Below are positions 16,313 to 59,714 of a stretch of DNA of 64,000 nucleotides, in pieces. Both the position numbers and the translations under genes were made by a program. Below the pieces are notes generated by a model that was not told the DNA's origin, did not search any database, and was given only the letters and a program-made list of their open reading frames with translations. Origin of the DNA: Candidatus Nitrosocosmicus agrestis (GTDB lineage: Archaea; Thermoproteota; Nitrososphaeria; Nitrososphaerales; Nitrososphaeraceae); contig NZ_VUYS01000001.1 of the NCBI RefSeq assembly GCF_008389435.1, positions 62,001 through 126,000 of the forward strand. The letters run 5' to 3'. How positions within the stretch are numbered: position 1 is the stretch's first letter; every line of letters starts with the position of its first letter.

Positions 16313-17245
16313 TTAAAGATCATCATAATCTATTTTCAATAATTTGAGATCAAATGCTAATTCGGTGTTCAGCAAAATTGAACGTGCCTCAACAAGAAGG
16401 TCAGTCAAATCCTTGTATCGGCTACTAAAATGAGTCAAACATAATTTGCGAACCGATGCCTCTTTTGCAAGAGTTGCACTTTCAATAGCTGTAGAATGGT
16501 AGCTCTCTCTTGCTTTGTCAATTTCCTTAGATGAGAAAGTAGACTCAAATACAAGTAAATCACAATCTCTGAAAAAATTACAAAGGTTATTTGAAGGACG
16601 GGTATCTCCAGAAATACCAACCTTTCTACCAGAGCGCGGTTTACCAACTATATCCTTTGAATAGATTGTCTGATTTTCAAAAATAATATTCTTTCCTTTT
16701 TGGAGCAACCCATACAATTCGCCTTCTGGTATCCCAAGTGCTTTTACCTTTTTAATATCAAATTTGCCAGGTCTTTCTTTTTCTACCAAACAAAATGCAA
16801 ACGAACAAATTCCAGGACCGTGTTCTGATTTGCAGTAAAGTATCTCATAATCCTTGTCCTTCAGTGCAACACCTTGTGACCCAGAAATTGTGTGAACATG
16901 TAACTCGAAAGTCAATTTGATATTAAGTAATTTCATGTTTTCCATAATAAATTCACGAATTGGACTAGGTCCAAATATGTTAATAGGCAAATTTCTTCCC
17001 TGAAGTGATAAAGTTTGAAGAAATCCGAGTATACCTAAAATATGATCTGAATGCATATGGGTTATAAATAATGTTGTTTTTTTGTTAAACCCCAGTTTGG
17101 CTCTAATAAAATTATATTGCATCCCTTCTCCCGCGTCAAAAACCAATAACGTACCATTTCTATTTATTACAACAGAAGAAAGCGAGCGGTCTGGTGTGGG
17201 CATGGCAGCAGACGTTCCCAAGAATATAACTTCAAGACACACCAT
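16313..17245 (-). CDS. rnz: Ribonuclease Z (tRNA 3'-end endonuclease)
   Basis: A 310-residue short-form RNase Z. FLGTSAAMPTPDRS opens the MBL fold. The zinc motif THMHSDH is at 62-68. An exosite-like insertion (about 150-200) is present, followed by GISGDTRP and the histidine motif LTHFSSRY near the C-terminus. The enzyme cuts tRNA precursors after the discriminator base. This matters here because the tRNA in this window has no encoded CCA. It is probably co-transcribed with prs upstream (19-nt gap). Confidence 0.93.
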   Translation of the reverse strand: MVCLEVIFLGTSAAMPTPDRSLSSVVINRNGTLLVFDAGEGMQYNFIRAKLGFNKKTTLFITHMHSDHILGILGFLQTLSLQGRNLPINIFGPSPIREFIMENMKLLNIKLTFELHVHTISGSQGVALKDKDYEILYCKSEHGPGICSFAFCLVEKERPGKFDIKKVKALGIPEGELYGLLQKGKNIIFENQTIYSKDIVGKPRSGRKVGISGDTRPSNNLCNFFRDCDLLVFESTFSSKEIDKARESYHSTAIESATLAKEASVRKLCLTHFSSRYKDLTDLLVEARSILLNTELAFDLKLLKIDYDDL

Positions 17246-40599: not shown

Positions 40600-42972
40600 T
40601 TGAGCTTAAAGATCACCGAAAAGACCTGGTCAGCGGAAACGGAGAAAAGAATCCTGCAAGAATGGAGGATCAACAATATTTACAATTATCCATTGAATGA
40701 TGAAATAAATGAGAAAAACTTTGTAATTGATACTCCTCCCCCTTATCCCTCAGGCAGACCCTGGCATATCGGAGCAGCAGCACATTACTCACAAATTGAT
40801 ATGATTGCAAGGTTTGCTCGTTTAAAGGGTTTGAAAGTTGTATTTCCAATTGGAATAGATAGAAATGGAATTCCTGTAGAAATGCATACTGAAAAGAAAT
40901 ACAAGATTCGAATGAGAAATACAGAAAGAAGAGAATTTTTAAAGCTTTGTAAGATTACATTAGATGAAACTGAAAACGAGTTTATAGAAATACTGGCGAG
41001 CCTTGGTCTTAGTGCTAATTTTGATGAGAAATACCAAACTGATTCTTCAACATATAGAGCGTTTACTCAGTCAACGTTTATTGACATGTGGAACAGGGGC
41101 TTGATATACTTGGGAAACAGGCCTAATAATTATTGTATCGACTGCGGCACTACCATAGCTGATGCGGAAATTAATTATCTAGATATTGAAACCAAATTAG
41201 TTTATCTAAAGTTTTATTCAAAACAAATAGACAATTATATCACTATTGCAACTACCAGACCCGAGCTTCTTTTTGCATGTCAAGCTGTAATAGTAAATCC
41301 CGATGATGAAAGGTATGACAACCTTCAAGATACATTATTAAAAATACCATTATTTGATAGAGAGGTCAAGGTAATTCCCCATTTATCTGTAGATAAAAGC
41401 TTCGGGTCTGGAGCGGTCATGATATGCAGTTATGGTGACCTTAATGACGTTCAATTATTCAGAGAACTAGGTCTGCAGGAAATAGTCTCCATAGATATGA
41501 ACGGGAGAACTACAGAAGCAGCAAGGGAATTTTCAGGACTCAAAATAAAAGATGCAAGAACCAAGATAATTGAGGAACTTACTAATAGAGGACTGGTTGA
41601 AAAAATTGAAACTATTATTCATAGAACGCCGGTTTGTGAAAGAAGTAAAACTCCGATTCAAATAATTTCGCTTGAAGACTATTATCTAAAGCAGGTTGAT
41701 ATGAAGTCAGAACTACTGAACCAATCCCACACCATGAAATTTTATCCTGAAATGCATAGACAAATTCTCACAAATTGGATAAAATCAGTGGCAATAGATT
41801 GGCCAATATCAAGACGTAGATATTATGGAACTGAAATCCCAATATGGTATTGCACAAAATGTCACACACCTAATCTGCCTAAACCCGGAAAGTATTATAG
41901 ACCTTGGGAAGAAAACCCTCCGTTTGAACATTGCAGTTCATGTGGTAATGACAAATTTGAAGGAGAGAAAAGGATTTTTGATACATGGATGGATTCAAGT
42001 GTAACGCCTCTTTTTGTTTCAAAATTTTACAAAGACAAACAGTTTTTTGATAAATCATATCCAGCAGCCTTAAGACCCCAAGGTAAAGACATTGTCAGGA
42101 CTTGGTTGTATTATACTATGTTAAGGTGTGTATATCTTACGGATCAGATACCCTGGGAAGGAGCTTGGATAATGGGATATGGCGTAGATGAGAAAGGTGA
42201 AAAAATGAGCAAGAGTAAAGGCAATGTAATCGATCCGCTTCCTCTAATCAAAAAGTACGGAGCTGATGCCTTTAGATTTTGGTCTGCGAGTGAGACAAAT
42301 GTTGGATATGACTTTAGATGCTCAGAACTTAAGATACAGGGAGCCCAAAAATTCTTGTCAAAGCTATGGAACATTGGAAGGTTTATTTCAAATTTTGAAA
42401 TTATAGAAGAAAACAATAAACCACAAGTGCTCAACCCAACCGACAAGTGGATACTTTCAGAATTATCCAATACCATAAGCAAATGTTTGGAAGGATATGA
42501 AGAGTTCAATTTTTTTATACCTGCCAATACACTTAGAGAGTTTACTTGGAATGTTTTTGCAGCGCACTATATTGAAATGATAAAGGGCAGAGCATACAAT
42601 AAAGAACTTGAAGAGAATAGAAAATCGGCCCTTTATACTATTCACAAGTGTTTTAAAACGATATTGCTACTATTGGAACCATTATGCCCATTTATTTCCT
42701 ATGAACTTTGGATAAAAATTTATGAGAATAAAGAAATAATTACAAATCAAAGAAAAATACCGATGGTAGACAATGAATATGATTCCTTTATCCCTTCAAC
42801 ACAGGACATCATCAAATTCAATTCAGAAATTTGGAACAAGAAAAAAACGACAATTTCTGAAATTACAAAAAAACCACTTTCACTCAAGGATCCAATCCAT
42901 ACAACAATTCCAAGGGAGTTAGAACCATTTAGTGACGATTTGGTAACTATGCATAACATAATTAGAGAATAA
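40600..42972 (+). CDS. valS: Valyl-tRNA synthetase
   Basis: A 790-residue class Ia synthetase. The HIGH-box variant HIGA is at 56-59 within PPPYPSGRPWHIG, a form used by archaeal ValRS. The editing domain includes TIATTRPELL. The catalytic domain has WPISRRRYYGTEIPIWYC and zinc-ribbon cysteines (YCTKC...HCSSC). KMSKS is at 535-539, and an anticodon-binding helical domain follows. A second CxxC pair (YCIDC) sits earlier. It is shorter than bacterial ValRS because the C-terminal coiled coil is missing. The start is TTG. LeuRS and IleRS were considered, but the motif wording favours ValRS. Confidence 0.9.
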   Translation: MSLKITEKTWSAETEKRILQEWRINNIYNYPLNDEINEKNFVIDTPPPYPSGRPWHIGAAAHYSQIDMIARFARLKGLKVVFPIGIDRNGIPVEMHTEKKYKIRMRNTERREFLKLCKITLDETENEFIEILASLGLSANFDEKYQTDSSTYRAFTQSTFIDMWNRGLIYLGNRPNNYCIDCGTTIADAEINYLDIETKLVYLKFYSKQIDNYITIATTRPELLFACQAVIVNPDDERYDNLQDTLLKIPLFDREVKVIPHLSVDKSFGSGAVMICSYGDLNDVQLFRELGLQEIVSIDMNGRTTEAAREFSGLKIKDARTKIIEELTNRGLVEKIETIIHRTPVCERSKTPIQIISLEDYYLKQVDMKSELLNQSHTMKFYPEMHRQILTNWIKSVAIDWPISRRRYYGTEIPIWYCTKCHTPNLPKPGKYYRPWEENPPFEHCSSCGNDKFEGEKRIFDTWMDSSVTPLFVSKFYKDKQFFDKSYPAALRPQGKDIVRTWLYYTMLRCVYLTDQIPWEGAWIMGYGVDEKGEKMSKSKGNVIDPLPLIKKYGADAFRFWSASETNVGYDFRCSELKIQGAQKFLSKLWNIGRFISNFEIIEENNKPQVLNPTDKWILSELSNTISKCLEGYEEFNFFIPANTLREFTWNVFAAHYIEMIKGRAYNKELEENRKSALYTIHKCFKTILLLLEPLCPFISYELWIKIYENKEIITNQRKIPMVDNEYDSFIPSTQDIIKFNSEIWNKKKTTISEITKKPLSLKDPIHTTIPRELEPFSDDLVTMHNIIRE

Positions 42973-52902: not shown

Positions 52903-53661
52903 TCAGATCAATGAAATGATTGAATCAAAGTTTTGTCTTGATTTATCATTTTTGTATGTTGTCAATCTATCCATAAAAATACATTTTTTCTTTTCGTAAT
53001 TGAGTAAGCCATTTATCTGTTTTGATATTATACCTCTAAAAAGTAACCCCTGTAGAACAGAGGTTACATTATTGACTTTTCTATTCTTACTTGCGCTCTC
53101 GAAATCTACTATTGTGCATCTTGAACCATCAGAAGAAATTATTACATGATTATCAAGTTTATTTAGCTGTCCATGATCTATACCAATCTTATCCAACGTA
53201 TAACATTGGTTTAGTATATTTACTATTACTTTTCTCAAGTTATTTAAATCAGAATTGAAAGACAAGAACCAATTTCTTGCAGGTAACCCATCAAGACATT
53301 CCATTAATAAAATATTTCTCGTACAATGAAAGACCTTGGGCCCAATGCCATACAGGTTTACGTATTGATAAAGACTAAACTCATTTTTGACGTCTACTCT
53401 ACTTGAATCTGTTCTTCTAATCTTTGCTGCCTTGAATTCATTACAATGATCCTGTACTTTAAGTACTAATCCTTCGCTGCCTTTTCCCAAGACGCATTCG
53501 TTATTTAATTTAGTATTGCCTTCCAATATTACGTATTTTATACCTAATGATCTTAGTTCGTTTAACTTTTCAAAATAATCATAAGGACAATATTTTGGAT
53601 AACAGAACAGATCGGCTAAGATGCAAGATGTAACAACAAATTTGTTAGAATACTCTGTCAT
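52903..53661 (-). CDS. RIO/Bud32-like protein kinase-fold protein (COG2112-like)
   Basis: About 252 residues from the preferred internal ATG; a frame extending nine codons upstream overlaps cca further. Kinase-like motifs are the glycine-rich loop GKGSEGLVLKV, the lysine in AAKIRR, GIGPKVF, and a catalytic loop that reads HGQLNKLDNHVI where HGD is expected, then VDFESAS in place of DFG. This wording matches the archaeal COG2112 group of predicted Ser/Thr kinases. The Asp-to-Gln change may reduce phosphotransfer. It overlaps cca by 17 nt, so translation is probably coupled and a role in RNA metabolism is plausible. Confidence 0.75.
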   Translation of the reverse strand: MTEYSNKFVVTSCILADLFCYPKYCPYDYFEKLNELRSLGIKYVILEGNTKLNNECVLGKGSEGLVLKVQDHCNEFKAAKIRRTDSSRVDVKNEFSLYQYVNLYGIGPKVFHCTRNILLMECLDGLPARNWFLSFNSDLNNLRKVIVNILNQCYTLDKIGIDHGQLNKLDNHVIISSDGSRCTIVDFESASKNRKVNNVTSVLQGLLFRGIISKQINGLLNYEKKKCIFMDRLTTYKNDKSRQNFDSIISLI

Positions 53662-55045
53662 CAGTATACAATAGTTCAGAAACCGCATTTTTTATATGTG
53701 TATCAAAATTCTCGATTTGTGACAAAGTAAATATCGCATAAGATTTTAGAAAATCGGATTTTATCCCCTTCGGAATCCCTATTAAGCCAGGATTACTGTT
53801 AAGGACAGATCTCAAGTACTCTTGAATATTCGTGTGTTTTCTAAGAAGCAGACAATTGGTTTTAGAACTATTATCCAGCCATTTCAATAGGGATGCGTTA
53901 TTAACTTCTAGAAACTTTTTCAGATCAGCGCCTCTAAAAATTTCGGGTCCTTTCTTCAAAAATAATGGCGAGATTACTGTAGATTCTAAGAGTAACGCAA
54001 TAATGCAACTTTTTTCCTCCTGAACTACAGAGCACGCAGATTTTAAAATAGTAAATCCGCATGATTCTGAAAATTTGATGATCGATTTCACAAGTTTTTT
54101 TAGTTGTCCCCAAATAACATCAGATGGCCTATCAGCGTACTGGAATTCGATTATCAAGATGAATGAAGATAACTGATCCGTAAAGCAAGGGTCTATTGGG
54201 TGTTCAATTTCTGATACAAAATATATATCGCTTGGATTGCACAGGAATTTTCTTGAGCCTTGTATAAGAGTTGAAGCTGCACGAATAGATATAGCGCTAC
54301 CTAAGTTTCTATTTGTATCAATTGGATCCAATATTACAATAAAGCTATCAAACCGGTCAAAGTGTTCTCCTGTAGGCGTTAATGATTCGTCTATCCCAAT
54401 CATAATTTTCTCACTCGAGCATTCAGAAAAAAAATGAATAGTGGATAAAAATGAACCAAATTTTAAAATCAGTACCTCGCAAACATATCCACTAAATCCT
54501 TCAGTGGATATCTCTGCACCATATATTTTAATAGATTTCATGAATTTTTTTAATATCCTTACCTCGTTTTTCTGTTTAGGATCAAGTTTGTTAACGATAT
54601 AATTTGTATGATATGGAGAACGATCTGCTGCACTCTTCCATTCTCCAAAAGGTACATCATAACATGGAACTACATTTACCTTGATGCCTTCCACAATTGC
54701 TTCTACATAAGGATGATCAGCATACCTAAGATACGGCGAGAATTCTTGTAAAGCCAGCATACCGATTTGTTTCCCATATTTTTCAAATTGATCATAATCG
54801 ATGGAATCATAGAATTTTATAAATATATCAATATCAGTTTCATTTTTGAGCCATGTTCCTTTAGCAAAGGATCCTCCATAAACGATTTCTTTCACCATTC
54901 CTTTGAGTTTATGTTCCCCAACAAAAGACTCTATCATTTGTTTTACTTTTGTTGCACATTCGGTTATTTCATGTACTTCACTTAGAGTCGGAATACATCT
55001 TTTGGAAATTTCCTCTAATATTGATTGGACAGATAAATTATTCAT
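53645..55045 (-). CDS. cca: CCA tRNA nucleotidyltransferase, archaeal class I
   Basis: A 466-residue enzyme. The nucleotidyltransferase motif GGSFAKGTWLKNETDIDIFI is at 57-76, with metal-binding D71 and D73. The archaeal-type VEAIVEGIKVNVVPCYDV and DRSPYHTNYI segments follow, as does the tail region. It adds CCA to tRNA 3' ends, which is needed because the tRNA in this window has no encoded CCA. It overlaps thpR by 4 nt and the kinase-like gene by 17 nt. Confidence 0.93.
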   Translation of the reverse strand: MNNLSVQSILEEISKRCIPTLSEVHEITECATKVKQMIESFVGEHKLKGMVKEIVYGGSFAKGTWLKNETDIDIFIKFYDSIDYDQFEKYGKQIGMLALQEFSPYLRYADHPYVEAIVEGIKVNVVPCYDVPFGEWKSAADRSPYHTNYIVNKLDPKQKNEVRILKKFMKSIKIYGAEISTEGFSGYVCEVLILKFGSFLSTIHFFSECSSEKIMIGIDESLTPTGEHFDRFDSFIVILDPIDTNRNLGSAISIRAASTLIQGSRKFLCNPSDIYFVSEIEHPIDPCFTDQLSSFILIIEFQYADRPSDVIWGQLKKLVKSIIKFSESCGFTILKSACSVVQEEKSCIIALLLESTVISPLFLKKGPEIFRGADLKKFLEVNNASLLKWLDNSSKTNCLLLRKHTNIQEYLRSVLNSNPGLIGIPKGIKSDFLKSYAIFTLSQIENFDTHIKNAVSELLYTDDRVF

Positions 55046-55626
55046 GTTCTTGAAGTCGCTTCAATAGTAATCAAATCGGAATATATAGGGCCTCCGGATG
55101 TAAGAATACTTTTTTTTAACTTAATCCGGTCAATTTCAGTGCTGTAAGAGATATTATCATGTGCAAAGTTCAGAGGTTTTTCAAACCGTTGACGATGTTT
55201 AACTCTAAAGATTGTAAGATGAGGAGTAAATTCGAACTTTTCATCTGCACCAGAACTTTGTTTTATTTTAATATCTTTGACAGAATTAAGTAATTTAGTG
55301 ACAACGTGGTACAGGCTATCAATTTGCTTTATGCACCGATCATCAAGTTTTAACCATATAATCCTCGGCTCAATAGAATTTGGAAAGCAACCTATATCAA
55401 TAAATCTTGCTTCAAAAGATACAAACCTCAGATTTTGTAGTGTGGTAATAATTTCTTTAACTTGATCATCCGAAACTTCTCCAAGAAACTTTAATGTAAG
55501 ATGTAAGTTATCCTTGTGTATTGGCCTAATGTCTTTTACGTTGAAATTATGTTCTTTTACAATCCTATTTTGAATGTCAACAATTTTTTCGGTGTTATGG
55601 AGATCTATAGCAACAAAGGTTCGCAT
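55042..55626 (-). CDS. thpR: RNA 2',3'-cyclic phosphodiesterase
   Basis: A 194-residue 2H phosphoesterase (LigT/ThpR). The two HxTx motifs are HLTL at 42-45 (NLHLTLKFLGEV) and HLTI at 136-139 (FTPHLTIFRVKH). The enzyme opens 2',3'-cyclic phosphates at RNA ends, as formed in tRNA intron splicing. It heads a translationally coupled unit with cca and the kinase-like gene (4-nt overlap). Confidence 0.92.
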   Translation of the reverse strand: MRTFVAIDLHNTEKIVDIQNRIVKEHNFNVKDIRPIHKDNLHLTLKFLGEVSDDQVKEIITTLQNLRFVSFEARFIDIGCFPNSIEPRIIWLKLDDRCIKQIDSLYHVVTKLLNSVKDIKIKQSSGADEKFEFTPHLTIFRVKHRQRFEKPLNFAHDNISYSTEIDRIKLKKSILTSGGPIYSDLITIEATSRT

Positions 55627-59547: not shown

Positions 59548-59556
59548 AAAACTTAT
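59548..59556 (+). promoter_or_regulatory. TATA element of tRNA-Trp
   Basis: An AT-rich gaaaaacttatagttat context about 30-38 nt before the tRNA 5' end suits an archaeal TATA box with upstream BRE. Confidence 0.45.
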
Positions 59557-59623
59557 AGTTATATTCCAAAAAAGAATATGCAGGTGGGGTCGTAGCGAAG
59601 CCAGGCATCGCAACGGGCTCCAG

Positions 59624-59650
59624 ATCAAATAATGGGCAATTATTGAAGAA
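59624..59650 (+). other. tRNA-Trp intron 1 (canonical 37/38 position)
   Basis: 27 nt inserted after G37. Internal TCAAATAAT and ATTATTGA can pair around gggc with one bulged A, giving the central helix of a bulge-helix-bulge splice motif. Confidence 0.8.
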
Positions 59651-59672
59651 ACCCGTGGATCAGGGGTTCAAA

Positions 59673-59700
59673 TAATATATGCGAAATATATTAGAACAGT
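59673..59700 (+). other. tRNA-Trp intron 2 (non-canonical, in the T-loop)
   Basis: 28 nt interrupt the T-loop between A59 and U60. TAATATAT and ATATATTA form a perfect 8-bp stem around gcgaa. Without removal no 7-nt T-loop is possible. Confidence 0.75.
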
Positions 59701-59714
59701 TCCCTTCGGCCCCA

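Follow-up and report, generated by a model that had tools for sequence, protein, structure and literature searches.

A T-loop intron conserved in the two-intron tRNA-Trp gene of Candidatus Nitrosocosmicus agrestis and its family

The window, by which we mean the whole stretch of 64,000 nucleotides that was analysed, contains a real tRNA-Trp gene of this ammonia-oxidising soil archaeon. The gene is single-copy as detected, and two small introns split it, at 37/38 and in the T-loop (Table 1). The T-loop intron is a conserved non-canonical intron of an already known class. We hold it very probable that this gene, the sole tRNA-Trp detected, has a TATA promoter, that splicing of two introns yields a 74-nt tRNA, and that the T-loop intron was acquired on the stem of the family Nitrososphaeraceae.

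Table 1. Features of the tRNA-Trp locus and of two tRNA maturation genes, in window coordinates
Feature	Positions	Strand	Basis or remark
TATA-like promoter element AACTTATAG, upstream of tRNA-Trp	59550-59558	+	Recurrence in family; putative function
tRNA-Trp(CCA) gene, two-intron precursor	59586-59714	+	ARAGORN after splicing, covariance model, family comparison
Exon 1, tRNA positions 1-37, 3' end CTCCAG	59586-59623	+	
Intron 1 at 37/38, 27 nt, ATCAAATAATGGGCAATTATTGAAGAA	59624-59650	+	ARAGORN once intron 2 was removed
Exon 2, tRNA positions 38-58, ACCCGTGGATCAGGGGTTCAA	59651-59671	+	
Intron 2, T-loop, predicted 58/59, 28 nt, ATAATATATGCGAAATATATTAGAACAG	59672-59699	+	Bulge-helix-bulge GTTC/GAAC
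8-bp stem-loop of intron 2, TAATATAT-GCGAA-ATATATTA	59673-59693	+	
Exon 3, tRNA positions 59-73, TTCCCTTCGGCCCCA, CCA not encoded	59700-59714	+	
Archaeal CCA-adding enzyme gene (TIGR03671)	53645-55045	-	In the window, not adjacent to tRNA-Trp
ThpR / RNA 2',3'-cyclic phosphodiesterase gene (TIGR02258)	55042-55626	-	

Gene anatomy and detection

When both introns were excised, ARAGORN called the remaining 74-nt cloverleaf tRNA-Trp(CCA), and when intron 2 alone was removed it reported a tRNA-Trp with a 27-nt anticodon-loop intron and ambiguous ends. A covariance model made from spliced relatives scored the native gene at 79.5 bits with both inserts spanned. An earlier note on this DNA had described a tRNA-Trp with two introns, a normal 74-nt cloverleaf after their removal and a perfect 8-bp stem in the 28-nt T-loop insert; the stem is seen in the sequence, and the rest of that description is borne out. 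The native gene was missed by ARAGORN, which called no tRNA in the window. Rfam reported no tRNA in the window at gathering or relaxed thresholds, and an RF00005 scan of the organism's own genome missed the gene as well; the Rfam and RF00005 misses are presumably due to the introns. An intact second tRNA-Trp, which the earlier note had named as a finding that would speak against its reading, was not detected by the exon-1 pattern, which matches once in this 98.9% complete genome. Since all exons are co-linear within 129 bases, we rejected a permuted or split tRNA, and a group I intron was rejected on anatomy. No TGATGA/CTGA-type C/D boxes were seen by eye in intron 1 of the window. In most Nitrososphaeraceae relatives intron 1 carries a GG(G)C motif, again with no C/D-like boxes by eye.

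Archaeal splicing endonucleases cut in 3-nt bulges that flank a 4-bp helix. At the T-loop intron, G53-C56 (GTTC) pairs with GAAC near the 3' end of the intron as the central helix, the bulges are AAA and AGT, and the inner stem TAATATAT/ATATATTA follows. From this geometry the predicted cleavage points are AA|A and AG|T, which correspond to 58/59 and would give a mature T-loop of TTCAATT. The locus shows two features of an archaeal bulge-helix-bulge intron, a 4-bp helix between 3-nt bulges and a standard tRNA on removal. When the insert was shuffled 200,000 times, the 4/4 central helix and the 8-bp inner stem never occurred together. The mature loop TTCAAAT given by the earlier note, from a cut near 60/61, has to be corrected: the junction is off by two bases, and such a cut would fall within the inner stem. 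The outer helix is weak, also in the AAGGG genera, and competes with the mature T-stem, just as the intron competes with C61 for G53, which forms the pair G53-C61 in the mature tRNA. Because this helix is weak and competing, we read the motif as relaxed. When the whole precursor was folded, the intron-bearing cloverleaf reached -39.5 kcal/mol, whereas the unconstrained minimum-energy structure, which is a different one, reached -40.1 kcal/mol and is better by 0.6 kcal/mol.

A genome-wide search for other T-loop introns of the same form gave 8 pattern matches compared with 14 in a reversed control, and the Trp locus was the only recognisable tRNA among the 8. Many other tRNAs of the genome (L036, L038, L039, L041-L046) apparently have D-arm introns, judged by eye from weak matches, and L040 (G000:C33:60673-60797) is probably a Gly(TCC) tRNA with an apparent 37/38 intron and an insert in the 5' T-stem. 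The significance that the earlier note had attached to the co-location of genes for ThpR, the CCA enzyme and RNase Z is not supported: the first two lie about 4-6 kb from tRNA-Trp with other genes between, and the only RNase Z candidate is a generic metallo-beta-lactamase ORF (16313-17245) some 42 kb off. Beyond the shared pathway, we see no functional link of ThpR or the CCA enzyme to tRNA-Trp.

Conservation and origin of the T-loop intron

The earlier note had proposed to compare tRNA-Trp in related genomes. Nitrososphaeraceae, to which the window's genome belongs, is family 1 in this comparison. With 0-3 mismatches, the exon-1 pattern occurs in 58 of the family's 70 genomes, and the 61 loci comprised 59 complete copies and two that were cut by contig ends. 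Every complete copy (59/59) has both introns, over 12 genera including the window's own, with lengths of 23-33 nt for the T-loop intron and 26-48 nt for the 37/38 intron. The central helix GTTC/GRAY pairs 4/4 in all 59, between bulges AAN and ANH. A match in a Myxococcales record was discarded; it lies in GC-rich sequence and is due to chance.

Covariation was measured on an alignment of 30 distinct sequences. In this alignment 97.1% of cells pair, compared with 86.9% in column shuffles, and slid partners pair in only 31-48%. Two-sided changes occur in 26 cells, against 7.4 in the shuffles. All four pairs tested in the inner stem change on both sides, whereas helix 1 varies on one side only, which locates the covariation in the inner stem.

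Outside the family, tRNA-Trp takes different forms. In family 9, twelve loci were found via the 5' half and are hence unbiased for the T-loop, which was uninterrupted in 12/12. Besides a 37/38 intron that has C/D-like motifs by eye, ten of them (L225-L229, L232-L236) carry a second one on the 5' side of the anticodon stem, and the other two (L230, L231) have no intron. In three loci of family 10, also found via the 5' half, the T-loop is uninterrupted and the 37/38 intron has C/D-like motifs by eye; further family 10 loci were not counted because their search pattern itself demanded an uninterrupted T-loop. Seven loci of family 8 (L239-L245) were found via the anticodon arm, one of them shown without its 3' end. 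In all seven the T-loop is interrupted, the 37/38 intron has C/D-like motifs by eye, and the D-loop apparently holds a further intron; in these genes TTCA pairs with TGAG beside a full T-stem, an arrangement that fits 59/60. Pattern searches for tRNA-Trp in families besides 1, 8, 9 and 10 gave none or other tRNAs. We also observed that tRNA-Trp lies about 4-17 kb from the valyl-tRNA synthetase gene in 4/4 genomes, namely G077, G144 and G187 of family 9 and that of the window, where the pair is at 40600-42972 (synthetase) and 59586-59714 (tRNA-Trp).

In a ValRS tree, families 1 and 9 (100/99 each) are sisters, with family 8 outside. We conclude that the T-loop intron was probably gained on the Nitrososphaeraceae stem and retained thereafter, and the simplest reading of family 8 is a separate gain. 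It is unlikely, though the chance is far from negligible, that the T-loop introns of families 1 and 8 go back to a single ancestral intron, with a shift of one position and a loss in family 9. An intron does interrupt the T-loop of tRNA-Trp in both families, but the predicted position and the helix register differ between them, and in the tree family 9, which lacks this intron, is the sister of family 1 while family 8 lies outside. For the families that lie between, the pattern searches found no tRNA-Trp.

Splice site, excision and the splicing endonuclease

The prediction of 58/59 has to be weighed against splicing at the neighbouring 59/60 or 60/61. Similar bases flank both sites, such that several joins yield a plausible T-loop, and the motif of the family 8 relatives fits 59/60 better. 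In the Nitrosocosmicus gene, however, a 59/60 cut would require a TTCA/AACA central helix, which fails, and a 60/61 cut would break the perfect inner stem. The 4/4 pairing of GTTC/GRAY throughout the family, with T60 invariant next to CCC, also points away from both neighbours, and we consider a shifted site very unlikely.

A product that retains the insert as an extended T-loop is less credible still, and we judge it extremely improbable. The inner stem-loop is stable by itself, but the insert ranges from 23 to 33 nt and is free in sequence outside the splicing motif, and the conserved part is the bulge-helix-bulge, which fits an excised intron; a 35-nt T-loop would, on general grounds, disturb the elbow. 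That the gene has decayed into a pseudogene while some undetected tRNA decodes tryptophan in its place is barely conceivable even though ARAGORN and Rfam miss it, as the exons are nearly invariant over 12 genera, the intron stem covaries, most Nitrososphaeraceae genera have a TATA-like element upstream (ACTTATA or something close to it), and the exon-1 pattern matches no other copy.

Excision of the T-loop intron would call for an endonuclease of relaxed specificity, as the earlier note had argued, and the subunits encoded in the genome fit this need as far as their sequences go. There are two EndA genes, a catalytic alpha (L001) and a structural beta (L002). In an alignment over its length with the solved catalytic subunits of crenarchaea, the alpha subunit retains the Tyr, His and Lys; the beta subunit lacks the His. 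Moreover, the alpha loop SKPKNAEF aligns with EKPRGADF of A. pernix, and the crenarchaea-specific Lys-Pro-Lys/Arg loop is therefore present. The lysine, proline and basic residue of this loop have a reported part in cleavage and in broad specificity (PMC12397907, PMC6379350), and the role of K44, P45 and R46 has been described (PMC12397907). Alpha2beta2 endonucleases are described for Thaumarchaeota (PMC4090602, PMC3218864), and the Nitrosocosmicus EndA is predicted to assemble likewise.

Proposed processing and comparison with known systems

In the processing that we propose, the sole detected tRNA-Trp gene would be transcribed from its own putative TATA-type promoter, and each interrupted arm of the precursor would form a relaxed bulge-helix-bulge. 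An EndA-type endonuclease of alpha2beta2 form would remove the T-loop intron at 58/59 and the other intron at 37/38, with cut sites and order as predicted here. The exons would be ligated, presumably by RtcB, and CCA would then be added to give a normal 74-nt tRNA-Trp. In the precursor, intron GAAC would pair with G53-C56, and the elbow bases would be masked until splicing. Such pairing would stand in the way of elbow folding and T-loop modification, and perhaps of end processing, which raises the idea that the T-loop intron is kept for a function, splicing being an obligatory checkpoint for the sole tRNA-Trp. We offer this idea as speculation that is quite unlikely to be correct; a checkpoint could possibly be tied to loss of a C/D guide from the 37/38 intron.

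Whatever maintains it, the T-loop intron provides a family-wide natural series in an apparently single-copy tRNA, with 59 complete copies and intron lengths of 23-33 nt. Together with family 8, where the intron is differently placed, and sister family 9, where there is none, the series is a useful comparison set for testing the reading of relaxed motifs by the EndA KPK loop and for testing tRNA intron gain. The gene also matters for annotation, as ARAGORN and Rfam miss the only tRNA-Trp detected in the genome.

The intron of archaeal tRNA-Trp at 37/38 can carry a C/D guide RNA. Intron 1 occupies the same position of the same tRNA, and families 8, 9 and 10 show C/D-like motifs there; in contrast, the family 1 intron is shorter and no C/D-like motif was seen in it by eye. 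For the T-loop intron, the nearest set is that of tRNAscan-SE 2.0, for which a Thaumarchaeota-specific intron model was trained and which includes 107 non-canonical introns in that group (PMC8450103). The accessible part of that paper describes likewise small bulge-helix-bulge introns outside 37/38 in the same phylum and singles out neither tRNA-Trp nor a T-loop site. The literature searched yielded no description of this tRNA-Trp intron, which may already be listed in supplements or in GtRNAdb. The intron is not as unusual as the earlier note had implied, as this group has many non-canonical introns.

Joins in the T-loop at 59/60 are known from Thermofilum pendens and Cyanidioschyzon merolae, in permuted tRNAs (PMC3218864). 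These tRNAs resemble the present gene in that an interrupted T-loop is processed via a bulge-helix-bulge, but the Nitrosocosmicus gene is co-linear and its predicted site is 58/59. The multi-intron tRNAs of Thermoproteales (Pyrobaculum), as cited in PMC3218864 and PMC8450103, are similar in having two or three introns per gene and an alpha2beta2 endonuclease, which for Nitrosocosmicus is a prediction. Pyrobaculum belongs to a different phylum, and in the family of the present gene all complete copies checked have the second intron.
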